Assembly: GCA_944368945.1 (NCBI GenBank)
Contig: CALVXH010000006.1
Location: 1 to 39,123 of the forward strand
DNA from: an uncultured Bacilli bacterium
GTDB taxonomy: Bacteria > Bacillota_I > Bacilli_A > RFN20 > CAG-826
Direction: 5' to 3'
Length of the DNA stretch: 39,123 nt
Shown: positions 52-24,256 of the stretch, one piece after another
How positions within the stretch are numbered: position 1 is the stretch's first letter
How the letters are laid out: the number at the start of each line of letters is the position of its first letter
The notes under the pieces: generated by a model
The model's input: only the letters and a program-made list of their open reading frames with translations
What the model was told of the DNA's origin: nothing
Database searches by the model: none
Position numbers and translations under genes: made by a program

Positions 52-142
52 ATTATGCTAAAAAAATGACAACTTATTCTTAAAGTTATTAAAAAATATT
101 TTCTTTTTATATATGGTAATAGTGATAAAAGGAGTAAATTAC

Positions 143-8432: not shown

Positions 8433-11069
8433 ATGCTTAAAAGAAAGAAAATTTTATTTGTATTAGGTTTATCTTTTCTTTTAGTGGGATGTCAAAAAAC
8501 AACCATCAATGATGATAATGTTAATACGCCTCCTACACCGAGTGATCCTGATGGTGAGACACCAGAAAATCCAGGAACTACACCAGAAGAACCTGATACA
8601 CCTGATGATGAACCAAGTGCACCAACATTTAATTCTGATGATATTTTAGAATTTAGTGGAACCTATTTTGACAAAAATCAAACTCTTACGATAGATGATA
8701 ATGGAGTTAAATTAGGAACAAATAAAAGTCTAACAATTACAAATATTCAAAAAGAAAAAGTTGGAGGTCTTTTAGGTTTAAGAGAGCAAACAGTTGCTTA
8801 TTTAAAAGATGATGCAGGACTAGAATATAGAATGTTATATTCTTCTAGTTTAATGTACACACTTGAATTAGAGGTTAAAGAGGATAATAAATATACAGTT
8901 GTTAATGATTTCCAACCAGGGAATGAAGCATTAAAAGGTGTATTTAGTGCTTATGGCGATGGAGATGACTATAATTTTAATTTCTATTTCGGCAATGAAT
9001 TTGATAATACTTATGGAGCCTTCCGCTTAAATTATGGAAGTAAATCACTTTCTAAATCAGCTGATTCATTTTATTATAAAACAAGCTTTTTCGATTTAAA
9101 TGGAACTAAATCATTTGCTTTATCTATCTATGATTATTCAGATAATTATTTATATGGAAACTATGTATATCAATTAATGAGTGATGGTAGTGCCATTTTA
9201 TATGATATTGATAATAAAATGGATGGATATTATAGCGATCCTGCTGCTTTAAAAGATGACTACTTTTTTGAAGATGGCACAGTTGTCAATCTTCAAGCTG
9301 ATGTTGATTCTAAAACTTTAACTTATAAGGATGTTACTTATAACTATACATATACATTTGATGGAGAAGGACAAGTATTTACTTTAACAAGCGAAGGACA
9401 TGAAAATGTAGTTATTCGTCCTGATATTTATGGCGCTACATTTATTGAGGGTGATGAAACAAAGTATGCTGCCTTTGATACATTAAACTATTTTGAAAAT
9501 TATACATTTAGTAATGAGGATTTTTCATTCGCTTATGAATATGATTTGTGGGAAGATAATTATAGTTTATTAGTTAATGGAGAACTCACTGATTATAAAT
9601 TTGTAATTTTTGATGGAAGAAAATCTTTTGCTCTTACTCTTAATGGAATTGAATATACTATAAGTCCAGAAAAATATACTGTTGCTTTAAAGGTTACAAC
9701 AGCAGATGGAACAACTAAATATTTAACAAATGAAACTCTCTATAAGAGTCAATTCGTTAATTCATTTATTAGTTTGACTGATGGTACTTTAGGTTCTCTT
9801 TCAATTGATGATACTTTAGCAGTAAAACTAAATGAAAAGACTGCAAAAGGCGCTTTAAAATATGAACCTGGGATGAATAATCCTACATTAGCATTTAGTA
9901 TAGATTCGACTAACTATGAATTAAAAACACTCAATAGTACAAGTGGAATTTTTGAATTAAGTGATGGAACAACTTCGACTCATTTCTTTGAAAAAGAATT
10001 CATTGAAAATGGCTATGGAGACTATACAAAGAAAGTAGATAAAGATATTAAATTAGAGGCAACTACAATTACTTATTATGGCGATAAAGTTAATTATGAT
10101 TTAGTTGCTGAATATGATAGTAGTTCATTTAGTTACATACTTAAGATTTTATTTACTATTGATGGAGTAACTCATAAATTAGGCTTTCATACAAGTTATG
10201 TTTTAAGCGAAGATATGTTAGATGCTAGTGGGGAACTCATTGATCAAACAACTTATATTCCTTATGAATATTACGAGGATTTAATTGGAACATATTATTT
10301 TGATGGTGCTTATGGCCCAGAAAAATTTAAATTAACTAATGATGGTCATTTCTTTGCCGATACGTTAAATAAAGAAACAGGAGAACTTAAAGAGGTTGAG
10401 TACGCTTATAGATTAACTATGATACGTAATACCACAACTGGTTTATTACAAGCTGTAATTGGATTTGAAGCAGTAGAAAATACATTCGTTCTTTTGTATA
10501 AAGTTGAAAATGGATTGCTTTCATTTAGCTCAGTCTATACTAGAGAAGATTTATTTAATGTTCGTGGTGTTTATGCTACAAGTGATAATTCTACAGTAGT
10601 TCACATGGTTGATAATGTTGTCTATATTAATGGTGATGAATATTCAATTACAAATGTAGAAACATTAACTAATGGTGTAAAATTCGATACTGCTTCTGGT
10701 GGATTTAGTTTAAGTATTTTAGAAGATGGAACTTTAACTCTTAATGACGGAACTAGCGAATCATCATTAACAAAGATTGATTTTGACTTTAGTTCTTTTG
10801 TTGGCGATTATTCATCTCAATCGACTTCAGGTGCGACAGTAAAATTTGAAGCAGTAGTCGATCCAATGACTAATGTTACTACATATAAGCTTAATAAAAA
10901 TGGCATGGCTCTAAGTTATGTTATTACTTCTTACGAAGGACATGTAGCTCTTAAGTTTACTGACATAAGTGGTACTTATTATTTATATAATGATGGTACA
11001 AAGGTTGTTTATGTAGAGGAAGCTGGTGGCTTATTACCTCCACCTCCACCACCTCCACCATTAATGTAA
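8433..11069 (+). CDS. Large surface lipoprotein ending in eight prolines, unknown function
   Basis: An 878-residue predicted lipoprotein (signal peptide, lipobox LVGC). A Pro/Glu/Asp/Thr-rich spacer covers about 28-65. The rest is beta-rich, with recurring 'GTY/GDY...L.. DG' units, for example FSGTYFDKNQTLTI, LIGTYYFDG, FVGDYSSQS and ISGTYYLYNDG, which suggests several related beta-barrel or sandwich modules. I recognise no catalytic domain. The C terminus reads GGLL, eight prolines, then LM: the prolines come from alternating CCT/CCA codons and should make translation depend on EF-P. AAAGGAG lies before the ATG, and a TATACT at 8395-8400 may be a -10 box. It sits next to the GHKL sensor, so it may be a glycan-binding or signalling surface protein (inference). 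Confidence 0.8.
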   Translation: MLKRKKILFVLGLSFLLVGCQKTTINDDNVNTPPTPSDPDGETPENPGTTPEEPDTPDDEPSAPTFNSDDILEFSGTYFDKNQTLTIDDNGVKLGTNKSLTITNIQKEKVGGLLGLREQTVAYLKDDAGLEYRMLYSSSLMYTLELEVKEDNKYTVVNDFQPGNEALKGVFSAYGDGDDYNFNFYFGNEFDNTYGAFRLNYGSKSLSKSADSFYYKTSFFDLNGTKSFALSIYDYSDNYLYGNYVYQLMSDGSAILYDIDNKMDGYYSDPAALKDDYFFEDGTVVNLQADVDSKTLTYKDVTYNYTYTFDGEGQVFTLTSEGHENVVIRPDIYGATFIEGDETKYAAFDTLNYFENYTFSNEDFSFAYEYDLWEDNYSLLVNGELTDYKFVIFDGRKSFALTLNGIEYTISPEKYTVALKVTTADGTTKYLTNETLYKSQFVNSFISLTDGTLGSLSIDDTLAVKLNEKTAKGALKYEPGMNNPTLAFSIDSTNYELKTLNSTSGIFELSDGTTSTHFFEKEFIENGYGDYTKKVDKDIKLEATTITYYGDKVNYDLVAEYDSSSFSYILKILFTIDGVTHKLGFHTSYVLSEDMLDASGELIDQTTYIPYEYYEDLIGTYYFDGAYGPEKFKLTNDGHFFADTLNKETGELKEVEYAYRLTMIRNTTTGLLQAVIGFEAVENTFVLLYKVENGLLSFSSVYTREDLFNVRGVYATSDNSTVVHMVDNVVYINGDEYSITNVETLTNGVKFDTASGGFSLSILEDGTLTLNDGTSESSLTKIDFDFSSFVGDYSSQSTSGATVKFEAVVDPMTNVTTYKLNKNGMALSYVITSYEGHVALKFTDISGTYYLYNDGTKVVYVEEAGGLLPPPPPPPPLM

Positions 11070-11559: not shown

Positions 11560-12201
11560 ATGACAAAAACACAATTACAAATTAACAAAATATGTTTAGC
11601 AGCTTTATTTCTTGCTTTAGGATGGCTGATGCCTTTTTTGACGGGACAAATTAAGGAATTTGGAAGTATGCTTTTACCAATGCATTTACCAGTAATGATT
11701 TCAGGGTTTGTACTTGGACCAATTTATGGTGCTTTTATTGGATTTATTACGCCATTAACTAGATCATTAATCTTTGGCATGCCTAACTTATTGCCAACAG
11801 CTTTAGCTATGTGCTTTGAACTTATGACTTATGGATTTATTTGTGGGGGATTATTCATATTCTTATCTAAATATGTTAGAAAATTACCTACAATTGTTAA
11901 TATCTATATATCATTAATTAGCGCAATGATTATTGGTAGATGTATTTGGGGCTTGGCTTATTTCTTATTTAATTTTGCGGTTGCTGATGCGGCACCTTTT
12001 ACTTTAAACTATTTCTTAGTATCTGGATTTGCTAATGCATGGCCTGGAATTATTCTTCAATTAGTTTTAATTCCTTCTTTAATTCAATTACTATATTCAC
12101 AAAAATTAATTCAAAAGATGTTACCTGATTATGCAAGAGTGTTTAAAAAGTGGAGAAATAAAGAAGTTAGTAGCGAAGATTCAATCAATACTCAAGAATA
12201 A
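11560..12201 (+). CDS. ECF-transporter S component, substrate unknown
   Basis: A 213-residue integral membrane protein with about six hydrophobic helices. The first helix contains ALFLALG, like the small-residue motif S components use to dock on EcfT. It also has LLPMHLPVMISGFVLGP followed by GAFIGFITPLTRS, typical of vitamin-type substrate-capture proteins. It would use a shared EcfA/A'/T energy module, which is not in this window. The tail is basic and hydrophilic. The reading frame of a P-loop kinase overlaps its last 71 bases, so uptake is probably followed by phosphorylation. The substrate could be a vitamin, nucleoside or precursor; I cannot tell which from sequence alone. The candidate DeoR-type operator upstream suggests co-regulation with the sugar genes. 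Confidence 0.85.
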   Translation: MTKTQLQINKICLAALFLALGWLMPFLTGQIKEFGSMLLPMHLPVMISGFVLGPIYGAFIGFITPLTRSLIFGMPNLLPTALAMCFELMTYGFICGGLFIFLSKYVRKLPTIVNIYISLISAMIIGRCIWGLAYFLFNFAVADAAPFTLNYFLVSGFANAWPGIILQLVLIPSLIQLLYSQKLIQKMLPDYARVFKKWRNKEVSSEDSINTQE

Positions 12202-12703
12202 AAAAGATTGTATTATTGCTATCGATGGAATGTGTGCTAGTGGAAAAACTACCTTAGCTAGTGAACTAGCACACTTTTTTGATTGTAATATAGTTCATAT
12301 GGATGATTTTTATTATCCAAGAGGAATAATTGATTTATCTAAATCAAATGATGGAAATATTAATTTAATAAGATTAAGAGAAGAAATTATAAATAAAATT
12401 CATGATGATAGTTTTATTTATAATGTTTTTTCTTGTAAAGAACAAAAAATAGTTTCATCAAAAATAATAGAACATAAAGAATTAACTATTGTTGAGGGTA
12501 GTTATTCATTGAATCCTTTCTTGGGTCATTATTATGATATAAGTATCTTTTTAAAAGTAGATGAAGACGAACAATTAAGAAGACTAAAAGTAAGAAATCC
12601 ACGTAACTTTAATGACTTTACAAATAAATGGATTATACTAGAAAAACGTTATAATAAATACTATTTAATAGAAAAAAATGCAAATATTTTAATGCACTCA
12701 TAA
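12131..12703 (+). CDS. Uridine-kinase-like P-loop kinase, substrate unknown
   Basis: Up to 190 residues. The Walker A loop GMCASGKTT (residues 33-41) follows CIIAID. HMDDFYYPRG matches the substrate/Mg loop of the uridine kinase/phosphoribulokinase family. ELTIVEGSYSLNP is the 'E-G' strand, and RRLKVRNPRNF looks like the lid region. It probably phosphorylates a small hydroxyl compound in the cytoplasm, plausibly the one imported by the adjacent S component. The annotated ATG has no Shine-Dalgarno sequence and lies 71 bases inside the ECF gene. The next in-frame ATG falls inside the P-loop, so the true start is at or near 12131, or at a rare codon shortly after. Smaller than type I pantothenate kinase, which belongs to the same superfamily. 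Confidence 0.82.
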   Translation: MQECLKSGEIKKLVAKIQSILKNKKDCIIAIDGMCASGKTTLASELAHFFDCNIVHMDDFYYPRGIIDLSKSNDGNINLIRLREEIINKIHDDSFIYNVFSCKEQKIVSSKIIEHKELTIVEGSYSLNPFLGHYYDISIFLKVDEDEQLRRLKVRNPRNFNDFTNKWIILEKRYNKYYLIEKNANILMHS

Positions 12704-12839: not shown

Positions 12840-13658
12840 GTGAAAAAAATTTATTTAAATCTAAAAAGATTTGATATACCAAAAAGTTTCGATGGTATAT
12901 CAAAATTTGAAAGAAACGAAACTTATGGATCTACGATTACAACTGGAATTGAAAAAATGAATCTCAATTTACCAGTAACAATCTATTTTCAAGAATCAAA
13001 TCTTTTGCCAGCTTTAAGTGTGGCAAAAAACGTTAGAATTGGATGCCAAAGTGTTCACTTTGAAGATGTTAAAAAAGGTGGTAGCTTTGGTGCTTTTACC
13101 ACATTTAGAACTGCTAAAGCGATGAAGGCTATTAATGTTAGTGACACTATAATTGGCCATTGTGAAGAAAGAAAATATTTATCATATTTATTATCTTTAG
13201 GTGGTCCAAATGGCGATATAAATAAAATTCTAAATGAAGAAATTAAAAGAGCTCAAGAAGCCGGTTTAGAAGTTTTATATTGCATTGGCGAAAAGGCTGA
13301 AGAGCAAGAACATAAATATGATGTACTAAGACATCAATTAGAAGTCGGGTTAAAAGATGTTGATTTATCAAAAATTACAATTGCTTATGAACCTGTATGG
13401 GCAATTGGACCTGGAAAAGTACCTCCAGGAAAAGAATATATAGAGGATATTGCAAAATTTGTAAAAAGTGTAGTTGATTGCCCTATTGTCTATGGCGGGG
13501 GATTAAAAATGGAAAATGCTGAAATGATTGCATCAATTCCAGAAGTAGATGGTGGATTAATTGCGTTGACTAAATTTGGAGCAGACTTTGGATTTACGTT
13601 AGAAGATTTTGAAAAAATAGTATTAACTTACGAGAAAGGATTAAAAAATGAAGGTTAA
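12840..13658 (+). CDS. Triosephosphate-isomerase-like enzyme with altered phosphate-binding loops
   Basis: A 272-residue TIM-barrel protein starting at GTG, eight bases after AAGGG. The three catalytic residues of triosephosphate isomerase are present: Lys9 (LNLKRF), His107 (IIGHCEER) and Glu184 (AYEPVWAIGPGK). Changes lie in the phosphate grip: loop 7 reads YGGGLKMENA where YGGS is usual, loop 8 reads DGGLIALTKFG where the GLVGGASL-type motif is expected, and loop 6 continues PGKVPPG. It is therefore probably a paralogue acting on another ketose/aldose pair, as seen with the TIM-like isomerases of erythritol catabolism, and not the glycolytic enzyme. First gene of a six-gene operon; its end overlaps the LarA-like gene by 11 bases. 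Confidence 0.85.
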   Translation: MKKIYLNLKRFDIPKSFDGISKFERNETYGSTITTGIEKMNLNLPVTIYFQESNLLPALSVAKNVRIGCQSVHFEDVKKGGSFGAFTTFRTAKAMKAINVSDTIIGHCEERKYLSYLLSLGGPNGDINKILNEEIKRAQEAGLEVLYCIGEKAEEQEHKYDVLRHQLEVGLKDVDLSKITIAYEPVWAIGPGKVPPGKEYIEDIAKFVKSVVDCPIVYGGGLKMENAEMIASIPEVDGGLIALTKFGADFGFTLEDFEKIVLTYEKGLKNEG

Positions 13659-15078
13659 ATTAGAATATGGTGATGGCCAAGTTGAAGTAGAAGTCCCAGA
13701 GGGTAGTGATATTTTTGAAACTGGTGTCACTGTAAAGGATCCTGAAGGAATTAAAGATGTAAAGAAGGCTACTCTAGATGCTTTAACTCATCCACTCGAT
13801 ATGGAACCAATTAATAAACTTGTTCATAAAGGAAGCAAAGTTACAATTGTTTTCCCTGACAAGGTTAAGGGTGGCTTCCAAGAAGACTCACATCGTAAAA
13901 CTTCAATACCATTAATTATTGATGAATGCTTAAAGTGTGGTGTTGATGAAAAAGATATTTTATTAATATGTTCAAATGGCTTACATAGAAAAAATAAGCC
14001 TGAAGAAATAAGAAGAATTCTAGGAGATGCTATCTTTGATAGATTTTATCCAAAAGGACAAATTATTAATCATGATAGTGAAGATTGGGATCATCTAGTT
14101 GATTGTGGTTATGAACCAAAATATGGAGCAAAGGTTGTATTAAATAAATATGTTTATGATAGCGATGTTTGCTTCTTAATTGGACATGCACAAGGAAATC
14201 CTTATGGCGGATATAGTGGAGGATATAAGCACTGCGCCACAGGAATTTCTAACTGGGAATGTATCTCTTCACATCACTGCCCAGCTGTTATGCATCAACC
14301 AGACTTTGTACCAGTTTCATCTCATTCATTGATGAGAAAGAAATTTGATGCAATTGGTGAATGGATGGAGCATAGCATGGGCAAAAAATTCTTCTGTGTC
14401 GATGCAGTTTTAGATTCATTTTCACATCAAATAGCTGTTTTTGCAGGAGAAGCTCATAGAGTTCAAGAAGAATCCTGGAAAATTGCTGATAAACGTACTT
14501 ATGTCAAATGGGCAAAGAAAAAATATGATGTTATTATCTTTGGTTTACCAAATGATTTCCAATATGGTACTAGACAAGGTAGAAATCCAATTCTTGTTGA
14601 GCAAGCTATATCAGCTCAAGTTATTAGACTTAAAAGAGTAATGAGCGAAAATCCAGTTATTATCGCTTTAGCTCAATGTGATGGTGACTTTGGAGATGAA
14701 GAGTTCCCAGCTATGAAAGATGTTTATGACTATTTCCAAAAAGCCGGTAACACTCTTCCAGAAATTGAAAATTATTATCCAAAAATGGATAACGCTAAAT
14801 ATATTGAGATGTATCGTCATCATTATGCATTCCATCCATATCATGCTTTCTCAATGATCTCATGTGCACATATTGCCGAAAGAGATTGTAAGGCTGTTTA
14901 TATCGTTGGTGCTAAAGCTCCAGGAACAGCAAGGGAAATGGGAATGAAAACAAGAAGCACAGTTATGGAAGCATTCAAAGATGCTAAGAAGTTTGTTGGC
15001 GAACATCCTAATGTACTTGTTCTTCCAATGACATTTAAAAGACCATCAGTACATTTATGTATGGAGGATGAAAAATAA
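13648..15078 (+). CDS. LarA-family protein (nickel-pincer racemase/epimerase-like) with an altered catalytic histidine
   Basis: Full length, 476 residues, somewhat longer than lactate racemase. The family signatures are visible: an FPDKVKGG segment (D-x-x-R region, with Lys for Arg), CSNGLHRKN (the histidine corresponding to His108), GGYSGGYKH with Lys194 where LarA attaches its nickel-pincer cofactor (Lys184), and a downstream SSHH near the nickel-ligand His200 position. In the GHAQGNPYGGYSGG segment, Asn184 occupies the place of the second catalytic histidine (His174). LarA relatives include epimerases of several 2-hydroxy acids, including sugar acids. No larB, larC or larE cofactor genes are in the window. 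AAAGGA precedes the start; it sits between TIM-like and NagB-like genes, so a sugar-acid or related substrate is plausible (inference). Confidence 0.85.
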   Translation: MKVKLEYGDGQVEVEVPEGSDIFETGVTVKDPEGIKDVKKATLDALTHPLDMEPINKLVHKGSKVTIVFPDKVKGGFQEDSHRKTSIPLIIDECLKCGVDEKDILLICSNGLHRKNKPEEIRRILGDAIFDRFYPKGQIINHDSEDWDHLVDCGYEPKYGAKVVLNKYVYDSDVCFLIGHAQGNPYGGYSGGYKHCATGISNWECISSHHCPAVMHQPDFVPVSSHSLMRKKFDAIGEWMEHSMGKKFFCVDAVLDSFSHQIAVFAGEAHRVQEESWKIADKRTYVKWAKKKYDVIIFGLPNDFQYGTRQGRNPILVEQAISAQVIRLKRVMSENPVIIALAQCDGDFGDEEFPAMKDVYDYFQKAGNTLPEIENYYPKMDNAKYIEMYRHHYAFHPYHAFSMISCAHIAERDCKAVYIVGAKAPGTAREMGMKTRSTVMEAFKDAKKFVGEHPNVLVLPMTFKRPSVHLCMEDEK

Positions 15079-15896
15079 TGGAAGAAAAGATTTTACATAT
15101 CAAAGGTGATGATCTTAAAAAAGGTAAAGTACCTATTGATATTTATAAAGATAAAGAATCAACATTTAAAGCAATGGCTGACTTAATGTGTGATACAATT
15201 GTTGAAAATAATAAAAAACAACGCAAAACCTTATTTATTTGTCCGTTAGGACCTATTGGCCAATATAAATATTTTGCAGAAAGAGTTAATAAAGAAAAAA
15301 TTAATTTAAAAGAAGTAACATTCATAAATATGGATGAATACATGTTAGATGAACATACAATTGCTGGAACAGACTTTAAATTATCTTTCAAAAAAACAAT
15401 GTATGAACTCTGTTACGATAAAATTGATAAAGAGTTAGTAATGCCAGAGAGTCAAAGAATATTCCCAACTCTTGATAATGCAGATTATATTGATGAGGTA
15501 ATAAAAAAACATGGTGGAGTAGATATATGCTTTGGTGGAATTGGAATTACCGGACATATGGCATTTAATGAACCTCCATTCGAAGATGAAAAAGTTTCTG
15601 AAAAAGAATTTGTATCATCAAGAACAAGAGTAGTCAAAATTACTGAAGCTACAAGAGTTGTCAATTCTATGGATGACTTTGATGGAGCATATTACATGAT
15701 GCCAAAATATGCAATTACAATTGGCTTAAAAGAAATATTAGAGAGTAAAAAAATTCGTTTATATTGCTTTAGAAATTGGCATAGATCAGTCGTTAGACGT
15801 GCAAGTTTTGGAGAATGCAGCATAGATTTTCCTGCCTCCTTGCTCCAAAAGCACAAAGATGCAAGAATCGGAATTAGTGAAGAACTCGCTAAATAG
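15078..15896 (+). CDS. NagB/6-phosphogluconolactonase-superfamily isomerase-like enzyme, divergent
   Basis: A 272-residue relative of glucosamine-6-phosphate deaminase. Recognisable blocks are FINMDEYML (Asp86, equivalent to NagB Asp72), GGIGITGHMAFNEP (His160 and Glu165, equivalent to His143 and Glu148), SSRTRVV, AITIGLKEIL and PASLLQKH. Two departures stand out: Thr158 replaces the Asp141 of the DGH motif, and CPLGPIG replaces the usual phosphate-binding GSTP-type loop. Substrate and perhaps reaction probably differ from classic deamination. The start ATG shares its A with the LarA stop (TAATG), so the two are translationally coupled. The permease follows after nine bases. It could supply the isomerase or deaminase step after the neighbouring NagA, but it lies in a different operon. 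Confidence 0.85.
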   Translation: MEEKILHIKGDDLKKGKVPIDIYKDKESTFKAMADLMCDTIVENNKKQRKTLFICPLGPIGQYKYFAERVNKEKINLKEVTFINMDEYMLDEHTIAGTDFKLSFKKTMYELCYDKIDKELVMPESQRIFPTLDNADYIDEVIKKHGGVDICFGGIGITGHMAFNEPPFEDEKVSEKEFVSSRTRVVKITEATRVVNSMDDFDGAYYMMPKYAITIGLKEILESKKIRLYCFRNWHRSVVRRASFGECSIDFPASLLQKHKDARIGISEELAK

Positions 15897-15905
15897 GAGA
15901 AAATT

Positions 15906-16883
15906 ATGAAGGGAAAATTTAATCTTGATGAAAAAATGGATAGATTTGAGCGTGAGCTTAAAGAAAAAATTCGTGCGCTTAAGGTAAAATTAACTCCTAA
16001 ATTTGTCAAAGAAAATAGAAAGAAAAAGGAAGAAGCAATAGATGCAATTGATTTAACTACCTTAACAAAGCCAGTTAATGATGCTGCTACAAGCGGTCCA
16101 AAGAAGATGAAAGATTTTTCTGCCTGGGCTGGATGGAAAAATATTGCTGTAGGAATTATAGGTGTTATTGCTGTTATTGGTATTTGGTGGATTTATGCAG
16201 CAGTTACTGAAGCTTCAGGACACACAAGTTGGCTTTCATCTCCACCTGCAGTTGTTGAAAGATTCTACAAAACAGCCATTAAAAGTAACATCTTATGGAT
16301 TCACTTATGGTATTCGGTTCAACGTATTTTAGTTGGCTATGCTATAGCTATCGCTGTTTCTATTCCAGTAGGCTTCATTATGGCTTGGTATAAACCATTT
16401 AGGGCATTCTTAGATCCATTTATTCAATTCTTAAGATGTATACCACCAATTGCATATGTTCCAATCGTTGCAGCTGCAATGGGACCTTTCGAACCTGCTA
16501 AATACTTTATTATTTTCTTAGCTTGTTTCTTAACAATGACAGTCACAATTTATCAAGGTGTTAAAAACGTTGATTTAACTCTTGTTAAAGCAGCATATAC
16601 ATTTGGTGCAAGAGATAGAAACTTATTCACTGGTGTCATCGTACCAAGTGCATTCCCATTTATTTTAACAGCTATGAGACTTGGTATTGGCGCAGCTATG
16701 ACAACACTTATTGCAGCTGAACTTACAGGTACAACTTATGGTTTAGGCTCATTTATCAATACACAAGCATCGCAACTTAGAATGGATAATGCAATACTTG
16801 GTATTCTCGTTCTTGGTATATTTGGTATCGTTTTTGACAAGGCACTATTATTAGTAGAAAAACGTTTAACTAGATGGAAATAA
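15906..16883 (+). CDS. NitT/TauT-type ABC transporter permease with a long charged N-terminal extension
   Basis: Membrane subunit of an importer resembling SsuC/TauC, 325 residues. The first ~76 residues are hydrophilic and Lys/Glu-rich, with coiled-coil character, and are absent from typical members of about 250-270 residues. Transmembrane segments begin at WKNIAVGIIGVIAVIG. The BPD_transp_1 region includes the ATPase-contact (EAA) loop, recognised as AAYTFGARDRNLFTGVIVPSAFPFI, followed by AAELTGTTYGLG. TAGGAG lies seven bases before the ATG. Family members import sulfonates, taurine, nitrate, pyrimidine vitamin precursors and other small anions or heterocycles; the operon's enzymes suggest a sugar-derived acid here (inference). 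Confidence 0.9.
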   Translation: MKGKFNLDEKMDRFERELKEKIRALKVKLTPKFVKENRKKKEEAIDAIDLTTLTKPVNDAATSGPKKMKDFSAWAGWKNIAVGIIGVIAVIGIWWIYAAVTEASGHTSWLSSPPAVVERFYKTAIKSNILWIHLWYSVQRILVGYAIAIAVSIPVGFIMAWYKPFRAFLDPFIQFLRCIPPIAYVPIVAAAMGPFEPAKYFIIFLACFLTMTVTIYQGVKNVDLTLVKAAYTFGARDRNLFTGVIVPSAFPFILTAMRLGIGAAMTTLIAAELTGTTYGLGSFINTQASQLRMDNAILGILVLGIFGIVFDKALLLVEKRLTRWK

Positions 16884-16896
16884 TGTGAGGTAGTTT

Positions 16897-17796
16897 ATGA
16901 GTAACGATAACGAAGTAGTCATTAAAATAGACAATGTTAAAAAGATTTATCCAGTTGAAAAAGGTGATGATGTTATTGCTCTTAATGGAGTAAATCTTGA
17001 AATTAAGAAAAATGAATTTATATGTGTTGTTGGACCTAGTGGATGTGGGAAAACAACATTACTTAACATTATTGCAGGACTTGAACAACCTACAAGCGGA
17101 AGTGCAACAATTCATGGTCGCCCAATTTTAGGACCTGGACCTGATAGAGGAGTTATTTTCCAACAATACGCTTTATTTCCTTGGTCAACAGTTAAAAAGA
17201 ATGTTATGTATGCAACAAAATTTATTAAGCATGAAGTTCCTATGACTGTTAAGAATAAAGAAACTGGTGAGATGGAAACTGTTTATACAACTGATGAGCA
17301 TGGCAATCGTGTTCCAAAGATGAAAACAGTTAAATATACTAAGCTTGAAAGAGAAGCTATTGCTAAAAAATATATTAAGATGGTTCAACTTAATGGATTT
17401 GAGAATAAATTTCCAAAGGAACTATCTGGTGGTATGAAGCAAAGAGTTGCTATTGCTAGGGGATATGCATTAAACAGTGAGGTTCTTCTTCTTGACGAAC
17501 CATTTGGTGCACTCGATGCTCAAACAAGATCACAATTGCAAGAAGATTTATTAAAAACTTGGGAAAAAGAAAGAAAGACATGTTTCTTTATTACCCATGA
17601 TGTTGATGAATGCGTTTTATTGGCTTCTAGAGTAATTATTATGAGTGCTAGACCAGGAAGAGTAAAAGAGATTTTAAATATTGATTTACCTTATCCAAGA
17701 ACGCAAGCAACTAAACTCGATCCAAAATTCCAAGAATATCGTAACTACATCTGGGATGTTGTTTACAAGATGTATCTTGATAGCGGAGTTCATTAA
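16897..17796 (+). CDS. NitT/TauT-type ABC transporter ATPase with an insertion before the signature motif
   Basis: Energy-coupling ATPase of 299 residues. Walker [10 protein letters not shown] (46-54), Q loop FQQYALFPW (about 88-96), signature LSGGMKQR (176-183), Walker [11 protein letters not shown] loop ALDA, and switch histidine in FITHD. Between the Q loop and the signature, roughly residues 108-152, there is an extra Lys/Thr/Glu-rich insertion compared with SsuB/TauB, which are about 250 residues. The region lies where the helical subdomain contacts the permease, and the partner permease has its own unusual extension, so the two may interact. GTGAGG precedes the ATG. The binding-protein gene follows after 50 bases. 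Confidence 0.92.
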
Positions 17797-17846
17797 TTAG
17801 GACTAAACAAATGAAAATTTGTAAATAATAACAAAGGAGAATTACA

Positions 17847-18950
17847 ATGAAAAAATTTAGTTTATTTGGAGCACTTGCAGCAGTAGCTGTCTTAGGTGTT
17901 ACATCGTGTGGCAGTAGCGGATCTACTGTAAAAGTTGGTTTACATGCAAACTTAGGAGCAGGTGCTGGCTATAGTGCAATTAATCAAGGATTTATGAAAG
18001 ACGAAGGCATTACTGCTGAAGCAGTCGTCGGTGATGGTTCATCATTAGCTACTCAAGTCATTGCAAACCAAATCCAAGTATCATTTATGGGTGGTGGTGT
18101 TGCATGGAACTACTTTACTGAAAATTCAGACATTAAGATTGTCGCTTTAGATAATTTAACAGATGATGATAGATTAATTGCTAGAAAAACTGGTAAAGGT
18201 GCAAGCTTAACAATTAATTCTTCATTAGAAGATATTGGTGAAGCATTAAAAGGATCAACTGTTGCTCTTGACCAAACAGCTACTCCAGCAACTTTCTGGA
18301 CAAGTTTAGTAACAGAAGTTAACAAAGTCTTAGAACCAGGTGATAAGATTTGGTATAAACAAGATGATGCAAAACTACCAGAAGGATTAACTGATGCTGA
18401 TTATGTCGCTGCTAATGAAGTTAAGGTTGAAAATGTTAAGAATACAAATATTTCTACATCAGCACAAACAGCTAAGTGGGATTTCGTAATCGCATTTGCA
18501 CCAGTTGCAACACAACTTGAAAAAGATACAGCAAATTGGAAAACAGTTTGTAAGACATCTACTCATATGGCAGATTCATACGCTCCATCAACATGGGCTG
18601 TTAATACTACTTGGTTAAAAGACAATGAAGAAACCTTCAAGAAATTCATGGTTGCTTTAGTCAAAGGTATGAATTATAGAAATCAACATGTTGCAGAAAC
18701 ATGTAAGGATATCGAAGCAGTTACAGCTGGACAAGTTGCTGCTGATAGTTTAACAACAGATATTGCAGTTTGGTTAAGTGCTGAACAACAATTAGAATTA
18801 GATAGCAGTGGCAAGATGATGAAATATGTTGAAAACATTAGAAATGGACAACTTGCTGGTGCTAATGCCGATAAGATTGTCAAATCAGCAAAAGATGCAT
18901 GTGATTTCTCATATTTAATCGAAGCTTGTAAAACAGTTTTAGGTAAATAA
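17847..18950 (+). CDS. Substrate-binding lipoprotein of the NitT/TauT-type ABC transporter
   Basis: A 367-residue extracytoplasmic receptor, anchored by a lipidated Cys21 (GVTSC). The mature part has the SsuA/NMT1 type II periplasmic-binding fold signature: VKVGLHANLGAGAGYSAINQGFMKDEGI at the start, then VIANQIQVSFMGGG and the second-lobe segment DFVIAFAPVATQLEK. The ligand cannot be read from sequence. AAAGGAGA precedes the ATG, and a terminator follows the stop, so this is the last gene of the operon that begins with the TIM-like enzyme. Confidence 0.92.
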   Translation: MKKFSLFGALAAVAVLGVTSCGSSGSTVKVGLHANLGAGAGYSAINQGFMKDEGITAEAVVGDGSSLATQVIANQIQVSFMGGGVAWNYFTENSDIKIVALDNLTDDDRLIARKTGKGASLTINSSLEDIGEALKGSTVALDQTATPATFWTSLVTEVNKVLEPGDKIWYKQDDAKLPEGLTDADYVAANEVKVENVKNTNISTSAQTAKWDFVIAFAPVATQLEKDTANWKTVCKTSTHMADSYAPSTWAVNTTWLKDNEETFKKFMVALVKGMNYRNQHVAETCKDIEAVTAGQVAADSLTTDIAVWLSAEQQLELDSSGKMMKYVENIRNGQLAGANADKIVKSAKDACDFSYLIEACKTVLGK

Positions 18951-18969
18951 TAAAAATTGAAGCCCTTAG

Positions 18970-18999
18970 GAGGAAGCAAAAAGCTTCCTCTTTTAATTT
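18970..18999 (+). terminator. Terminator of the TIM-LarA-NagB-ABC operon
   Basis: GAGGAAGC (18970-18977) pairs with GCTTCCTC (18983-18990) across five A, followed by TTTTAATTT. Confidence 0.9.
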
Positions 19000-19111
19000 G
19001 CTTAAATATATCACTATATTTTGATAAATTTAGAGAATATTTATTACCATACGAATGCTAATAAATTTATGAATAGTAATGCAAATTAGTAATTACTTTT
19101 TAAAATAACAT

Positions 19112-19141
19112 AATAAAAGGCCATCACTTAAAGCGATGACC
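19112..19141 (-). terminator. Terminator of the TauE/SafE-type gene
   Basis: Read on the minus strand, GGTCATCGC pairs with GTGATGGCC (one G-T pair) across a five-base loop and is followed by TTTTATTA. Confidence 0.8.
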
Positions 19142-19162
19142 ATAATTTTAATAAATTTATTT

Positions 19163-20005
19163 TTAGGCTAGTGAGATGGCTGAAGAAATTATTAAATAAA
19201 TATTTATTGCAATGATCGCAATAGTAGTTGCCATATATACTATTTGGACACCTTTATTTGACATCTTTTTATTAAAGTAAGTCCCTAGTAATGAGCCAAT
19301 TATTGAAATAGGTACTAAGATAATTAAAAATATCCACCATGATTGATCAGCGGTAGTAGGTAATTGATTTATTGTAAATAATGTAACAAATGTTCCATCA
19401 ATTCCGGCCATAACTATTTTTGCAAGTTGTGAGAAGATAATTGTAATTAAAGAATTAATTGCGGCTTGTTTCATACTCATTCCAAAGAATAATAATAAAA
19501 CTGCTACGTTAATTGGACCTCCACCGATTCCTAAGAATGTTGAACAAATTCCTAAGAATACACCGATTATGAGCGTGACTATGAAGTTATTGATATGAAG
19601 TTGCTTACCTTTTGGAAGAAAGAGTTGCATATAAATTAAAACAAATATTAATAATGCAATAAGGATTGCTGATTGAACAATAATTAAGATATTCCCGTTT
19701 GATGAATCTTTAACGAACTGGAATAAAAATTGTCCAATAACTCCGCCTACCACAGCTCCAATTCCTAAATAGACAGCTGTTTTCCAATTTTCAATTTTGC
19801 TTTTAGAAGCAACATGTCTGATGATGGAAGTTGAAGTGCCAAAAACAACGCACATTGTTGAAATCATGTTAGTGATTTCTGGGGTTGAGAAGTAATTAAA
19901 AGCGTCAAGTACAGGCCTAATTATAACCCCGCCACCTATACCTGCAATCGCCCCAATAATAGATGCAATTATAACTACTATTGGAAATAAAAAATAATAT
20001 ACCAT
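19163..20005 (-). CDS. TauE/SafE (DUF81)-family membrane permease
   Basis: An eight-helix-type membrane protein of 280 residues. It has the two glycine-rich half-repeats expected of the family: GAIAGIGGGVIIRPVLDAF near the N terminus and GICSTFLGIGGGPINVAVLLLFFG in the second half. Family members export sulfite, sulfoacetate and other organosulfur anions, or move other small anions. It is divergent from the DeoR regulator and has its own terminator, with the TauT-type ABC operon ending just beyond. Together these make an anion-handling role in the same pathway plausible, but the family is broad. No good Shine-Dalgarno sequence is visible before the ATG. The shared intergenic region carries strong palindromes. 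Confidence 0.88.
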   Translation of the reverse strand: MVYYFLFPIVVIIASIIGAIAGIGGGVIIRPVLDAFNYFSTPEITNMISTMCVVFGTSTSIIRHVASKSKIENWKTAVYLGIGAVVGGVIGQFLFQFVKDSSNGNILIIVQSAILIALLIFVLIYMQLFLPKGKQLHINNFIVTLIIGVFLGICSTFLGIGGGPINVAVLLLFFGMSMKQAAINSLITIIFSQLAKIVMAGIDGTFVTLFTINQLPTTADQSWWIFLIILVPISIIGSLLGTYFNKKMSNKGVQIVYMATTIAIIAINIYLIISSAISLA

Positions 20006-20164
20006 AACTATATTTTACTATAAACGAAACTTTATTTAAATAATGTATTACTGTGTAATACATTATATACTTTAGTATAAAAAGTAAGAAAATTTATTAA
20101 AAAAGTTTCGTTTCGCTTAATAAAACGAAAATATTATGATAAAATCGTAAGTGAGGTTATAAAG
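20006..20164. promoter_or_regulatory. Divergent regulatory region with nested palindromes (DeoR operators)
   Basis: TAATGTATTAC (20041-20051) and GTAATACATTA (20055-20065) form a perfect inverted repeat around TGT. It is flanked by AAACGAAACTTT (20022-20033) and its exact reverse complement AAAGTTTCGTTT (20102-20113), with further TTTCG/CGAAA words to 20132. TGATAAAAT (20137-20145) is an extended -10 for the DeoR gene, and GAGG (20153-20156) its ribosome-binding site. Looping between distant operators and autoregulation are likely (inference). Confidence 0.65.
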
Positions 20165-20920
20165 ATGAAAATTAATAAAAGACAAAGTGAAATAGTTGAA
20201 ATGGTAGACTCTGAAAAACAAGTTACAGTTAAAGAACTATCAGAAAAACTTGGTGTTAGCGAGGTTACTATTAGAAAAGACCTTGATACTTTAAGTGAAT
20301 ATGGCATTTTAATTAGACATCATGGCTATGCTTTAAAAAAGAATACAGCAGATATTGTAAATAGACTTTCGATTAATTATGATTCAAAATGTAAAATCGC
20401 TAGAAAAGCAAATGCCCTAATTGGTTTTAATGAAACAATATTAATTGGTAGTGGTTCAACTTGTGCTTTATTAGCAGAAGAAATTGTTAGAACTAAACCA
20501 AATGTTACAATTATTACCCATTCAATTTATATTGCGGAACATGCTTCAAGATTAGGTAATAATAAAATTATTTTGCTTGGAGGAGAATATCAAAGAGACG
20601 CCCAAGTTATGGTTGGACCTTTAGTTAGATCTTCAGTTAGACAATATTATGTAGATAAAATATTTCTAGGAACTGATGGATTTGTCAAAAATGTTGGTTT
20701 TATGGGAAGTGATGTTTTAAGAACTGAAGCAGTAAAAAATATGGCTGAAAGTGCAAGACATATAATTATCATTACAGATTCAACCAAATTTTCAAAAAGA
20801 GGACTTTTAGTTCAATTTTCTCAAAAAGAACCAACTAGGATAATAACTGATAAAAAGCTACCAGAAGATTATATAGAATTCTTTAATTCTTTAGGTGTTC
20901 CAGTCACCTTAGTTGACTAA
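20165..20920 (+). CDS. DeoR-family sugar-phosphate-responsive transcriptional regulator
   Basis: A 251-residue regulator. The N-terminal winged helix-turn-helix (about 5-57) reads VTVKELSEKLGVSEVTIRKDL, the DeoR signature region. The DeoRC effector domain contains GSGST (95-99), the phosphate-gripping motif, then LLGGEY, IFLGTDGF and IIITDSTKFSKRG, all typical. The effector is therefore probably a phosphorylated sugar intermediate. Operator-like TTTCGTTTCG words in front of this gene and of the ECF gene, and a related word near the aldolase, suggest its regulon. Its 3' end overlaps the convergent epimerase gene by four bases. Confidence 0.93.
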   Translation: MKINKRQSEIVEMVDSEKQVTVKELSEKLGVSEVTIRKDLDTLSEYGILIRHHGYALKKNTADIVNRLSINYDSKCKIARKANALIGFNETILIGSGSTCALLAEEIVRTKPNVTIITHSIYIAEHASRLGNNKIILLGGEYQRDAQVMVGPLVRSSVRQYYVDKIFLGTDGFVKNVGFMGSDVLRTEAVKNMAESARHIIIITDSTKFSKRGLLVQFSQKEPTRIITDKKLPEDYIEFFNSLGVPVTLVD

Positions 20921-21756
20921 TTGTTTTTAAATGTATATGAGTAAGAAAATGAAGCTACTTCATTTTCTTTTAATTTATTAATTGCAACTCTACTAGGAAG
21001 ATCTTTTGATTCATTAATATAATTTGAAATTCCCCACCAGGGTTCAACACAAACAAAGTCACCAGTTTTAGCATTTGACCATATAGCAAAATATGGTGCA
21101 TTAAAATTGTAAATAGCTTTAATATCATCAAATCCAGTAAATAAAGTTAACTCTTCATTCTCGCCTTTATAAACTAATGTATCTAATTTTTGGAAGGTAG
21201 ATTTTTTTAAATCTACTGAATTCATTGATAAGTTTTCTTTGTTTTCTACATCAATAAGTCCGCAATTTAAAGGTAAAAATTTAAAATCTTTGTTAAACTT
21301 TATATATCCAGATTCGCTACTTGCCTTTAATGCAGTGTGAGAACCATAACTAAAACATAATTCTTCTTTTCCTAAATTTTTAACACTTGTAGAGACAACA
21401 AGTTTATTTTCATTTAATGCATAAGTGATAGTAAAAGCAAAATTAAATGGGTAAACTTTTAATGTTTCTTCGTTTGCTTTTAAGCCTAAAGTAATTGAAT
21501 CTTTTGTTGAATTTAAAATATCTAATGTACATGTTCTTAAAAATCCGTGTCTAGTCGAAAATGTATAATTTTGATTTTTATATTCATAGTTACCTGCTCC
21601 AACTAAAGGGAATATAACAACATCTTGAAACGCCCATGAATCCTTTTGAATTTGATATTGGACTTCTTTATTAAGTGGCTTATAAATGATTGAATTTAAG
21701 ATCGCACCTTTTTCGTTAATAGCCGCTTTTAAATATTTATTTTCAATAATTTGCAT
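20917..21756 (-). CDS. Aldose-1-epimerase-like protein (galactose mutarotase superfamily)
   Basis: A 279-residue beta-sandwich enzyme of the LacX-like branch. Motifs include STRHGFLR (substrate histidine), SYGSHTAL (catalytic-type histidine) and CVEPWWGISN (catalytic-type glutamate). It would interconvert the alpha and beta anomers of a hexose, supplying the right form to a kinase or permease. The stop overlaps the DeoR stop convergently by four bases, and the start faces the NagA promoter region. A Shine-Dalgarno AAAGGAG is present on the minus strand. Aldose epimerases also accompany sulfoquinovose and amino-sugar clusters, so the exact sugar remains open. Confidence 0.88.
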   Translation of the reverse strand: MQIIENKYLKAAINEKGAILNSIIYKPLNKEVQYQIQKDSWAFQDVVIFPLVGAGNYEYKNQNYTFSTRHGFLRTCTLDILNSTKDSITLGLKANEETLKVYPFNFAFTITYALNENKLVVSTSVKNLGKEELCFSYGSHTALKASSESGYIKFNKDFKFLPLNCGLIDVENKENLSMNSVDLKKSTFQKLDTLVYKGENEELTLFTGFDDIKAIYNFNAPYFAIWSNAKTGDFVCVEPWWGISNYINESKDLPSRVAINKLKENEVASFSYSYTFKNN

Positions 21757-21873
21757 ATAAAACTCCTTTTGCTTTCTAATGAAATCTAAAACATCAGTTT
21801 TTACTTATAAAGTAAAAAAATGATTTTTATATATGTTATAATTTTAGATAAATAAAGGAGTTTTTTAAACAAT

Positions 21874-23001
21874 ATGAAGAAAGAATTTAAGAATATAAAG
21901 ACTCTTCTAGAGGACCGTTACGAGTTTTGTGATGTCGTAATTGATAATGGTAAGTTTTCAAGCGTTAAGAAAAGTAGCAATGGTGATACAACTTATGAAG
22001 ATAAGTTTATGATTCCTGGTTTTATCGATGAGCATACTCATGGCGGCGATGGGAAAGATTTTACTACTTGTAAAGATATTTTTGATGTCGAACATATTCT
22101 TAAATTTTACATTAAACATGGCGTGACAAGTGTTTTACCTACTTTATTGACAGAAAGAGATGAAATTGTTTTTAAACAACTTGAATTAATTTATAAAGCA
22201 AGTTTAAAAAACCCAATTATTAAGGGAGTGCATCTAGAAGGTCCATTTTTATGTAAAGAATATAAGGGTGCGCAATTAGAGAGTTGTCTTCAAAAACCTT
22301 CTGTTGAGAAAGTTAAAACTTTTATTGATAAATCCCATGGCCTATTAAAGTTAATGACAATTGCACCTGAAAATGATGGGAGCGAAGAGACTATTAAATA
22401 TTTAGTTAGTCATGGTGTAAGAGTTTCTTTAGGACATAGTGCAGCTAGTTTTGATGATTGTACTAGAGCTTTAAGAGCCGGTGCTAGTGATATAACTCAT
22501 ATTTTTAATGCTATGAAAGGGATTCATCAACATTATCCATCTATATTAAGCGCAGCCTTATATTATGATGATTTTTATTGTGAAGTTATTTTAGATGGCA
22601 TCCATGTAAAACCTGAGATGGTAGAATTTGTTCGAAAAATTAAAGGTAATGATAAAGTGATTGGTATTACAGATTCATTAATGGCAGCTGGTTTACCTGA
22701 TGGAAATTATTTTATTGGTGAGACTCCAATAACAGTTAAAGATCATGATTGTGTTATCACTGAAACTGGTGTTAGAGCTGGCTCAACTTTAGATATGAAA
22801 AGAGCCTTTGATAATGTTAAAAAGTTTTGTAGTTTAGATGATGTTGTCGCTAGCCACATTTGTTCATTAAACTGCGCTAAAATGCTTGGAATTGATGATA
22901 AAGTTGGCTCGATTAAAGAAAAAAAGAATGCAGATTTCTTAATTTTAAATAAAAATTATGAGATTGAAGAAGTATATATTAACGGAGAAAAAGTTTTATG
23001 A
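21874..23001 (+). CDS. nagA: N-acetylglucosamine-6-phosphate deacetylase (or a related N-acetyl-hexosamine-6-P deacetylase)
   Basis: Removes acetate from an N-acetylhexosamine 6-phosphate in the cytoplasm. At 375 residues it has the family's length and the amidohydrolase landmarks: PGFIDEHTHGG (His54, His56), HLEGPFL (Glu122 metal ligand), SLGHSAA (His188), THIFNAM (His209), DGIHV and ITDS with catalytic Asp267. AAAGGAG lies 13 bases before the ATG, a longer gap than its neighbours show. The PFK gene overlaps its end by four bases (ATGA), so they form one operon. A true NagB is not adjacent; the divergent NagB-like protein at 15078 may take that place. Whether the substrate is GlcNAc-6-P or GalNAc-6-P (as AgaA) cannot be decided from sequence. 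Confidence 0.92.
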   Translation: MKKEFKNIKTLLEDRYEFCDVVIDNGKFSSVKKSSNGDTTYEDKFMIPGFIDEHTHGGDGKDFTTCKDIFDVEHILKFYIKHGVTSVLPTLLTERDEIVFKQLELIYKASLKNPIIKGVHLEGPFLCKEYKGAQLESCLQKPSVEKVKTFIDKSHGLLKLMTIAPENDGSEETIKYLVSHGVRVSLGHSAASFDDCTRALRAGASDITHIFNAMKGIHQHYPSILSAALYYDDFYCEVILDGIHVKPEMVEFVRKIKGNDKVIGITDSLMAAGLPDGNYFIGETPITVKDHDCVITETGVRAGSTLDMKRAFDNVKKFCSLDDVVASHICSLNCAKMLGIDDKVGSIKEKKNADFLILNKNYEIEEVYINGEKVL

Positions 23002-24158
23002 TGAAAAATGTTTTAATAGCTCATGGAGGAGCTCCAACTGCCGTAATTAATGCCTCACTTTATGGTGCTTTAATGGAATTAAAAGAAAGTGGATTTAATG
23101 GAAAAGTATATGCTCCTAAATTTGGTTCAGATGGTCTTTATAATGAAGAGTTTATTGATTTAACTAACTTAACTGATCATGAATTAGAAGTATTAAAAAA
23201 CACTCCTGGAAGTGCTATTGGCAGTTCAAGATTTCCACTTTATGAAAAAGAATATGAGAAAATTGTAAAAATACTTGTTAAGTATGACATTGGATATGTT
23301 CTTTTTACTGGTGGAAATGGAACAATGGACACAATTGGTAATATTTATAAATACGCAAAAAAAGCAGGAGTTGAAGTAACTTGTGTTGGAATTCCTAAAA
23401 CGATTGACAATGATATTGGTGTAACTGATCATGCCCCAGGATTTGCTAGTTGCGCAAATTACATTGCTCAAACTGTTGCATGTTGTGCTCAAGATGTTAA
23501 AGGACTACCAATTCACGTTTGTGTTATTGAAGTTATGGGAAGAAATGCAGGATGGCTTGCTGCTAGTAGTGCATTAGCAAGAAGTAAAACAGGTGATGCG
23601 CCACATTTAATTTATTTTCCTGAAATACCATTTGATGAAGATGAGTTTATTGAAGAAGTTAGAAAGGCTTGGGAAAAAAGACATGGGGTGATTGTTGTTG
23701 CAAGTGAAGGATTAAAGTATGCTGATGGAACACCAATTGTTGAACCAATTTTCAAAACCGATAGAGCAACATATTTTGGTGATGTTTCAACTCACTTAGC
23801 TACCTTAATTATTAAAAGACTTGGGATAAAAGCTAGAAGTGAAAAGCCTGGTTTGATTTGTCGTTGTGATAGAAGTTTAGTTTCTAGAGTTGATCAAAAT
23901 GAAGCTATATTAATGGGAAGAACTGCGATGAAAGCAGCCCTTAATCATACTAATGGAGTAATGGCAGGAATAAAAAGAGTTTCAACTAAACCATATGTTA
24001 TTGAGCCTATTTTAATTCCTATTGAAAAGGTTATGTTAACAGAAGCCACTTTCCCATTAAAATATATTAAAAATAAACACGATGTTACTGATGAATTTAT
24101 TGAATGGTTAAAACCTCTTGTAGAAGATACTCCAGAAAATATTTCATTTTTAGATTAG
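22998..24158 (+). CDS. 6-phosphofructokinase-family enzyme with mixed ATP/PPi signature
   Basis: Phosphorylates a ketose 6-phosphate, probably fructose- or tagatose-6-phosphate, to the 1,6-bisphosphate. It has 386 residues and the layout of the PPi-type clade. TGGNGTMDT (Asn107, Gly108) aligns with the donor loop, where PPi enzymes carry Asp and ATP enzymes Gly at the second position. PKTIDND (Lys134, catalytic Asp137) carries the lysine typical of PPi enzymes, and EVMGRNAGW is the sugar-phosphate motif. The phosphate donor is therefore uncertain. Two adjacent ATGs occur at 22998 and 23001; the first overlaps the NagA stop. A bidirectional terminator follows. With NagA upstream and an aldolase facing it, it fits the lower half of an amino-sugar route. 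Confidence 0.9.
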   Translation: MMKNVLIAHGGAPTAVINASLYGALMELKESGFNGKVYAPKFGSDGLYNEEFIDLTNLTDHELEVLKNTPGSAIGSSRFPLYEKEYEKIVKILVKYDIGYVLFTGGNGTMDTIGNIYKYAKKAGVEVTCVGIPKTIDNDIGVTDHAPGFASCANYIAQTVACCAQDVKGLPIHVCVIEVMGRNAGWLAASSALARSKTGDAPHLIYFPEIPFDEDEFIEEVRKAWEKRHGVIVVASEGLKYADGTPIVEPIFKTDRATYFGDVSTHLATLIIKRLGIKARSEKPGLICRCDRSLVSRVDQNEAILMGRTAMKAALNHTNGVMAGIKRVSTKPYVIEPILIPIEKVMLTEATFPLKYIKNKHDVTDEFIEWLKPLVEDTPENISFLD

Positions 24159-24203
24159 TTTTGCAAGGTTATTAATTGTTTTTATTAAATTTATTAATAA
24201 ATG

Positions 24204-24239
24204 AAAAAGGCCATCATTCAATGGAGTGATGGCCTTTTT
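24204..24239. terminator. Bidirectional terminator between PFK and the aldolase
   Basis: AAAAAGGCCATCA (24204-24216) and TGATGGCCTTTTT (24227-24239) are perfect 13-base arms. Both strands end in a T run, so the hairpin serves both convergent genes. Confidence 0.92.
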
Positions 24240-24256
24240 ATGGCTAGACAATTTAA

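Follow-up and report, generated by a model that had tools for sequence, protein, structure and literature searches.

A gene neighbourhood shared by single-histidine LarA-like proteins points to a candidate parallel Embden-Meyerhof-type pathway for N-acetylhexosamines with a non-phosphate, possibly sulfate, group at C6

A contig from an uncultured Bacilli bacterium (CALVXH010000006.1, GenBank assembly GCA_944368945.1), of which we analysed a stretch of 39,123 nucleotides (hereafter the window), carries at positions 12840-18950 an operon where genes for three divergent enzymes, resembling TIM, LarA and NagB, precede those of a NitT/TauT-type ABC importer. This raises the question of the compound that such an operon would import and process. 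The available evidence suggests that the locus encodes a parallel Embden-Meyerhof (EMP)-type pathway for an imported N-acetylhexosamine bearing at C6 an anion other than phosphate (hereafter X), most likely a sulfate ester that is retained along the route. We assign to this reading a probability of about 0.58. N-acetylglucosamine (GlcNAc)-6-sulfate, or a relative of it, would be the most likely substrate. We consider the pathway to be real, conserved and undescribed.

The operon is composed of the following elements, with their family assignments.

12840-13658, plus strand: TIM-like isomerase (Pfam TIM, 120 bits); 11-nt overlap with the LarA-like gene
13648-15078, plus strand: LarA-like enzyme of the single-histidine (Asn) subfamily (Pfam Lar_N, 118 bits); 1-nt overlap with the NagB-like gene
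15078-15896, plus strand: NagB-like amino-sugar isomerase/deaminase (TIGR00502 nagB, 106 bits for a cut-off of 236.9; no match in a Pfam search)
15906-16883, plus strand: NitT/TauT-type ABC permease (Pfam BPD_transp_1; best NCBIfam match TauC, 142.6 bits)
16897-17796, plus strand: NitT/TauT-type ABC ATPase (Pfam ABC_tran; NCBIfam ntrCD 259.9 bits, taurine ATPase 233.7 bits)
17847-18950, plus strand: substrate-binding lipoprotein (SBP) of the importer (Pfam NMT1)
18968-18992, plus strand: strong intrinsic terminator 3' of the SBP gene (10-pair stem with a T tail)

An earlier, sequence-only reading of this DNA had described six consecutive genes, the first three overlapping or abutting, with a single terminator at the end. 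This layout is confirmed, the six densely packed open reading frames being all on the plus strand and the last three genes being separated from the preceding ones by 9, 13 and 50 nt, respectively. The family names are also correct, and the enzymes are divergent members of these families; thus, the TIM-like protein reaches at most 101 bits against TIM equivalog models, the cut-offs of which lie far above. An NMT1/TauA-type SBP, a TauC-type permease and an NtrCD-type ATPase together define the importer as NitT/TauT-type.

Is this gene order a peculiarity of one genome? In 62 of 75 loci, and in 22 of 29 lineages defined at 80% LarA identity, no more than 0.4 kb separates the TIM-like gene from that of LarA. 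These loci come from Bacilli, Clostridia, Spirochaetes and Chloroflexi, and the order is not due to chance. Moreover, within the family to which the window belongs, the TIM-like second copy is found in 8/8 genomes having LarA and in 0/7 genomes lacking it. A canonical TIM is encoded in every tested genome of this family, including that of the window, and in a phylogenetic tree the TIM-like proteins group together with full support, apart from the canonical TIMs of the same genus. Three Spirochaetales loci (L029, L036, L106) display the enzyme set as one operon, in the order LacI-PFK-NagB-NagA-FBA-TIM-LarA-permease-ATPase-SBP. The same set (LacI or DeoR, PFK, NagB, NagA, FBA, TIM, LarA and the NitT-type ABC importer) is found in parts in Clostridia and Bacilli, with clostridial variants where a GPI-like or SIS-type isomerase replaces NagB. 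Transketolase or HIBDH genes replace those of the aldolase or TIM in four loci (L040, L056, L017, L039), which is compatible with a common node at a three-carbon compound carrying X. The search for co-occurrence that the sequence-only reading had proposed therefore finds the neighbourhood outside this genome, in several phyla. This recurrence supports its view of a conserved route dedicated to the catabolism of an anionic sugar that the cell imports, within which divergent aldose-ketose and triose isomerases operate.

The limits drawn around the operon were too narrow. Comparison of the related loci by neighbourhood clustering showed that genes located 3' of the terminator in the window have counterparts that elsewhere lie in a single operon. 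The six genes are half of the locus, the linked genes spanning from about 11560 or 12840 to 25360, and genes of NagA, PFK, aldolase, mutarotase, TauE and DeoR type belong to it too.

11560-12201, plus strand: ECF transporter S component, role uncertain (Pfam ECF_trnsprt; genus-associated)
12131-12703, plus strand: nicotinamide-riboside/uridine-kinase-like P-loop kinase, role uncertain (best solved relative nicotinamide riboside kinase 1, E 1.3e-6)
19163-20005, minus strand: TauE/SafE-family transporter, candidate sulfate/sulfite exporter (Pfam TauE, 122.7 bits)
20165-20920, plus strand: DeoR-family regulator (Pfam DeoRC/HTH_DeoR)
20917-21756, minus strand: aldose-1-epimerase-like protein (mutarotase; Pfam Aldose_epim, 52.7 bits)
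21874-23001, plus strand: NagA-like N-acetylhexosamine deacetylase with an altered C6-anion site (TIGR00221 nagA, 270.9 bits, above the cut-off of 225.65)
22998-24158, plus strand: pyrophosphate (PPi)-dependent phosphofructokinase-like protein (PFK; PRK14072, 400.6 bits, above the cut-off of 273)
24257-25360, minus strand: class II ketose-bisphosphate aldolase-like protein (FBA; Pfam F_bP_aldolase, 249 bits)

The TauE gene is kept beside the operon within the genus and, in locus L013, lies co-directionally 3' of the SBP gene. The DeoR gene stands immediately 5' of the TIM-like gene, in divergent orientation, in L013 and L014. The model first proposed for the six genes, with a LarA-type epimerisation and NagB-type and TIM-type isomerisations acting separately on an imported sugar acid, agrees with the family resemblances; since it has no place for the kinase, aldolase and deacetylase genes that belong to the locus, and since the LarA-like protein has a single catalytic histidine (see below), we regard it as highly improbable.

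The enlarged set raises the question of the group carried at C6. Residues touching the 6-phosphate in the parent enzymes were compared across the pathway homologues. The E. coli sequences used as reference are supported by the known catalytic residues, which fall at the expected numbers in NagA, NagB and TIM; in PFK and FBA they do so once the numbering is shifted by one residue. In the parent families, R172 and K208 of NagB, loops 7 and 8 of TIM, the Arg residues of PFK and R331 of FBA serve phosphate binding. Arg227 (E. coli numbering) of NagA is replaced by His in all 29 NagA-like proteins, in which E131, H195, H216 and D273 are all kept (29/29). The NagB-like proteins have His in place of Lys208 (26/26) and none of the 26 keeps Arg172; their TGGTP loop is two residues shorter, D141 has become Thr or Asn, and D72, H143 and E148 are retained (26/26). 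As to the PFK-like proteins, Arg162 is His in 34/34, with Arg243 and Arg252 retained. The FBA-like proteins retain the metal ligands, the Ser267/Asn286/Asp288 group and R331, Ser61 being Ala in 14/14. Finally, the TIM-like proteins have Ala-Leu instead of the loop-8 Gly-Gly and Glu instead of Arg98 in at least 60 of 61 sequences, and Gly instead of the loop 7 Ser in 61/61, whereas the canonical TIMs of the same genus retain the loop 7 Ser and the loop-8 Gly-Gly. Their catalytic His95, Glu97 and Glu167 are invariant (61/61); the N-terminal, Lys-containing N[x]K motif is found by pattern in 52 of the 61, and at least four of the remaining sequences carry NFKRF. The replacements are independently visible in alignments with solved structures from the PDB.

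Thus, catalytic residues are intact and the C6 group of the substrate appears to be an anion other than phosphate. Judged from these substitutions and from the gene content, a parallel EMP-type pathway for a substrate with such an anion is likely. PFK retains R243 and R252, and FBA R331, so that these enzymes would still bind an anion. The conserved Arg of NagA is essential in the mycobacterial enzyme, where changing it abolishes function, and NagA accepts GlcNAc-6-sulfate with a 7-fold higher Km (PMC6016474). The same residues bear on the simplest explanation of the locus, a second ordinary GlcNAc-6-phosphate set made of NagA, NagB, PFK, FBA and TIM paralogues to which LarA would be unrelated. 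The NagA-like and PFK-like proteins do score above the curated cut-offs of the parent models. However, the phosphate-binding Arg and Lys are gone in every NagA and NagB copy, on which ground an ordinary GlcNAc-6-phosphate pathway was rejected. Moreover, the genome already has a canonical TIM, LarA is the constant partner of the TIM-like gene across phyla, and no phosphotransferase system (PTS) or hexosamine kinase that would supply the 6-phosphate was recognised in the operons; in operons such as those of L029 and L036, no sugar kinase or PTS was recognised besides the PFK type. We hold such a set, with LarA as a passenger, to be very unlikely.

From the gene content, we infer the following course for the pathway. 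The anionic sugar would be imported by the NitT/TauT-type ABC transporter, undergo mutarotation and be deacetylated by the NagA-like enzyme. The NagB-like enzyme, or elsewhere an SIS- or GPI-like one, would then isomerise or deaminate the product to a 6-X-ketohexose. Phosphorylation at C1 by the PFK-like enzyme, at the expense of PPi, would give a molecule where X takes the place of the glycolytic 6-phosphate, and the class II aldolase would cleave it into dihydroxyacetone phosphate (DHAP) and 3-X-glyceraldehyde. The next two steps are speculative. The TIM-like enzyme may produce the enediol(ate) of the C3 fragment and either isomerise it or eliminate X; the LarA-like enzyme, with its nickel-pincer (NPN) cofactor and one acid/base histidine, may complete a redox-neutral hydride-shift reaction, for example converting methylglyoxal hydrate into one lactate enantiomer or releasing X from dihydroxyacetone-X. 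Sulfate or sulfite would finally exit via TauE, whose part CHR or SulP proteins would play in other lineages.

Several observations connect X with sulfur. Among 35 genomes outside the genus of the window, six have a TauE-family gene within 6 kb of LarA, for 0.385 expected (Poisson P 3e-6). CHR (chromate/sulfate-type) pairs occur in other lineages, one checked with Pfam and the rest assigned by sequence similarity, and L039 has a SulP-like permease, judged by sequence. A sequence search of solved structures returned nothing for the SBP; a fold search with its AlphaFold2 model (pLDDT 87.7) gave TauA, SsuA and NrtA as nearest solved folds, taurine and sulfonate binders being among them. One genome (G699; loci L097 and L160, contig G699:C26) has its pathway operon contiguous with genes for a GH2 beta-galactosidase, a GH20C hexosaminidase and a GH29 fucosidase, together with a GH101/129-like gene, a Cys-type sulfatase and an APH-type kinase, possibly for N-acetylhexosamine. 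The glycosidases and the sulfatase are a mucin O-glycan set. The genome of the window, for its part, has no clear sulfatase. We find it probable, on the whole, that X contains sulfur. Taken together, the TauE, CHR/SulP, SBP and G699 evidence favours sulfate, a sulfate ester being at least an even choice, or slightly better, against a sulfonate. A bifidobacterial sulfoglycosidase from the gut frees GlcNAc-6-sulfate from mucin, and B. bifidum reportedly does not assimilate it (reviewed in PMC11186840). No described consumer of GlcNAc-6-sulfate was found in the literature searched, and our searches retrieved no LarA, TIM or NagB in sulfosugar pathways.

X could instead be a sulfonate, with a C-S bond. 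The same enzymes could perform a variant of sulfoglycolysis for a 6-deoxy-6-sulfo sugar (sulfoquinovose or an amino analogue), with an aldolase yielding sulfolactaldehyde (SLA), the TIM-like and LarA-like enzymes freeing sulfite and TauE exporting it. The TauA/SsuA-like fold of the SBP, making the importer TauT/SsuA-like, is in line with this, as are the mutarotase, GPI-like and transketolase genes of several operons. The loci combining an HIBDH-like enzyme, LarA and a TRAP or NitT transporter without TIM (L017, L039) would suit the conversion of dihydroxypropanesulfonate to SLA. On the other hand, the presence of NagA- and NagB-like enzymes implies that the substrate is an N-acetylated amino sugar; no abundant 6-sulfonated N-acetylhexosamine is known to us. 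The G699 pathway beside mucin glycosidases and a sulfatase also argues against a sulfonate. In favour of a sulfonate, TauE is cited in PMC12421959 as a known sulfite exporter of sulfonate metabolism. Against it, no pathway gene of the window was found to encode a protein of the types named for the sulfo-EMP pathway (PF07221 isomerase, PF00294 kinase and PF01791 aldolase; PMC12421959). As a whole, this sulfonate variant appears unlikely.

Two arguments for sulfur were discarded. Sulfatases show no general enrichment in the vicinity of LarA, since some genomes hold at least 40 of them, and their proximity was rejected as proof of sulfate. HIBDH neighbours were rejected as proof of SLA, their 'LGRP' motif, which occurs in other dehydrogenases too, not being diagnostic. 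Among the HIBDH-type LarA loci, L022, L034, L039 and L044 also contain an AlkP-superfamily phosphodiesterase-like gene, and the TRAP transporter is that of L039.

HIBDH relatives include tartronate semialdehyde reductases, which brings in a carboxylate as another candidate for X. An N-acetylhexosaminuronate or uronate would then lead to tartronate semialdehyde, which the TIM-like enzyme would convert to hydroxypyruvate for processing by the LarA-like enzyme, in agreement with the action of the LarA superfamily on alpha-hydroxy acids (PMC7583248). This scheme leaves the TauE enrichment and the CHR and SulP-like neighbours unexplained, and two-base epimerisation requires a second catalytic His, which is missing from this subfamily. 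We hold it to be improbable.

The sulfate reading calls for a closer look at the LarA-like protein. It scores 609 bits with LarA from S. plurextorum (LarA_Sp, PDB 9q2u) and 578 bits with LarA from B. wexlerae (LarA_Bw, 9q3j). With 9q3k, these are the first structures of a single-histidine LarA subfamily; its members are reported to have Asn for one catalytic His, and no lactate racemisation was seen with LarA_Sp (Gatreddi et al., 2025; PMC12611868). All 67 members examined here, that of the window included, have Asn (N185 in LarA_Sp) where the second catalytic His would stand. The equivalents of the catalytic H115, the NPN lysine K195 and the Ni ligand H211 are each found in 67/67, and the dimer Arg431 in 66/67. 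Residue 306, His elsewhere, is Gln in the genus of the window only. Of the two histidines that mark a racemase (His108 and His174), the second is therefore Asn and standard racemisation is not expected. Accordingly, the epimerisation of a hydroxy acid put forward in the sequence-only reading finds no support. Such LarA proteins may catalyse another hydride-mediated reaction (Desguin et al., 2020; PMC7583248). One may speculate that, with only one histidine as acid/base, the enzyme would be suited to moving a hydride in one direction, for instance in turning methylglyoxal hydrate into one lactate enantiomer once X has left by enediol elimination. That LarA acts on the C3 fragment is somewhat favoured. 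The fullest version of the sulfate reading is a desulfation-free glycolysis of 6-O-sulfated N-acetylhexosamines. In it, the TIM-like/LarA-like pair would strip the C3 fragment of its sulfate through a hydride shift that involves the nickel-pincer cofactor, is redox-neutral and is of a kind not known among LarA enzymes; we put this version forward tentatively.

The authors of the sequence-only reading had known of no described pathway with this gene combination. Genes of TIM, PFK, GPI, FBA and glucosamine-6-phosphate isomerase type were in fact noted near subfamily members, with those for TIM, aldolase and glucosamine-6-phosphate isomerase adjoining the Blautia wexlerae homologue, but neither a pathway nor a substrate was proposed (PMC12611868). 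New here are the pathway context as a whole, the altered residues and the link with sulfur-anion transporters.

The supply of the NPN cofactor is a separate question of possible salvage, raised by the biosynthesis genes apparently missing from many LarA carriers. Our search covered LarC and LarE. LarC is absent from the genome and genus of the window and, among 38 genomes with the subfamily LarA, from 27; LarE above cut-off is absent from the same genome and genus and from 36 of 50 genomes. The complete genome of Breznakiella (G412) lacks both, and its LarA keeps every cofactor-binding residue. NPN synthesis genes are present in about one third of the genomes with a subfamily LarA. Salvage through the upstream ECF-S protein and nicotinamide riboside kinase (NRK)-like kinase was considered, in view of the closest solved relative of this kinase and of ECF-S homologues located beside LarC1. 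Most genomes of the genus have the ECF-S gene and the kinase gene 5' of the operon; however, the distribution does not follow LarA, as G367 (L139), without LarA, keeps the pair, and G282, with LarA, has neither ECF-S nor a convincing kinase homologue. This weakens the proposal, which is kept as a lead only. ECF-S homologues were observed in Vallitalea (L142, G404:C15), beside an orphan LarC1 and genes labelled by eye as DUF3842-like and DUF1893-like, and in Halanaerobium (L143, G415:C8), beside LarB-LarC1.

Several points weigh against a retained sulfate ester or against the pathway as drawn. The Arg residues kept in PFK and FBA indicate that anion binding is not fully remodelled there, and the sites where Arg or Lys is replaced could serve a phosphonate or a carboxylate. 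The genus lacks LarC and LarE although the NPN-binding residues are invariant, a combination that the scheme does not account for. Sulfatases lie near LarA in four loci for about 2.6 expected (hand estimate). Finally, the loci with an HIBDH-like dehydrogenase and LarA without TIM (L017, L022, L034, L039, L044, L046) suit C3 sulfonates at least equally well.

Elsewhere in the window, positions 113-3379 encode a protein of 1088 aa with a match to glycoside hydrolase family 3, permuted in that its C-terminal domain precedes the N-terminal one, and positions 8433-11069 an 878-aa protein without Pfam match, 3' of a LytTR/GHKL two-component pair.

For a LarA subfamily with structures published in 2025 but without a substrate, the locus offers a pathway that can be tested. 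It is also a concrete candidate for the use of GlcNAc-6-sulfate without sulfatases, and could thereby account for the consumption of sulfated mucus sugars by gut microbes. If the LarA step were a non-stereochemical hydride shift, the chemistry of the nickel-pincer cofactor would be extended.

How does the proposed pathway compare with known systems? It shares the logic of sulfo-EMP sulfoglycolysis (Yih), with a mutarotase, an isomerase, phosphorylation at C1, an aldolase releasing DHAP and an anionic C3 aldehyde, and export of a sulfur anion. It differs in using NagB-like, PF00365 and PF01116 proteins instead of the sulfo-EMP isomerase, kinase and aldolase families, in adding a deacetylase step, and in directing the C3 fragment to TIM-like and LarA-like enzymes rather than to an SLA reductase or dehydrogenase. 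With Nag/Aga amino-sugar catabolism (NagA, NagB or AgaS, PFK, aldolase), it has in common the order of reactions and the enzyme superfamilies; here, however, the phosphate-binding residues of NagA and NagB are replaced, no PTS or 6-kinase was recognised, and the TIM and LarA enzymes are added. Relative to the LarA lactate racemase superfamily (Desguin et al., 2020), the N-terminal domain and the NPN-binding residues are the same, but only one of the two catalytic histidines is present. The protein belongs to the LarA_Bw/LarA_Sp subfamily, which has the same exchange of His for Asn, NPN lysine and Ni histidine, as well as neighbours of TIM, PFK, GPI, FBA and NagB type; the genus studied here differs from it by Gln in place of His306 and by the missing LarC and LarE.

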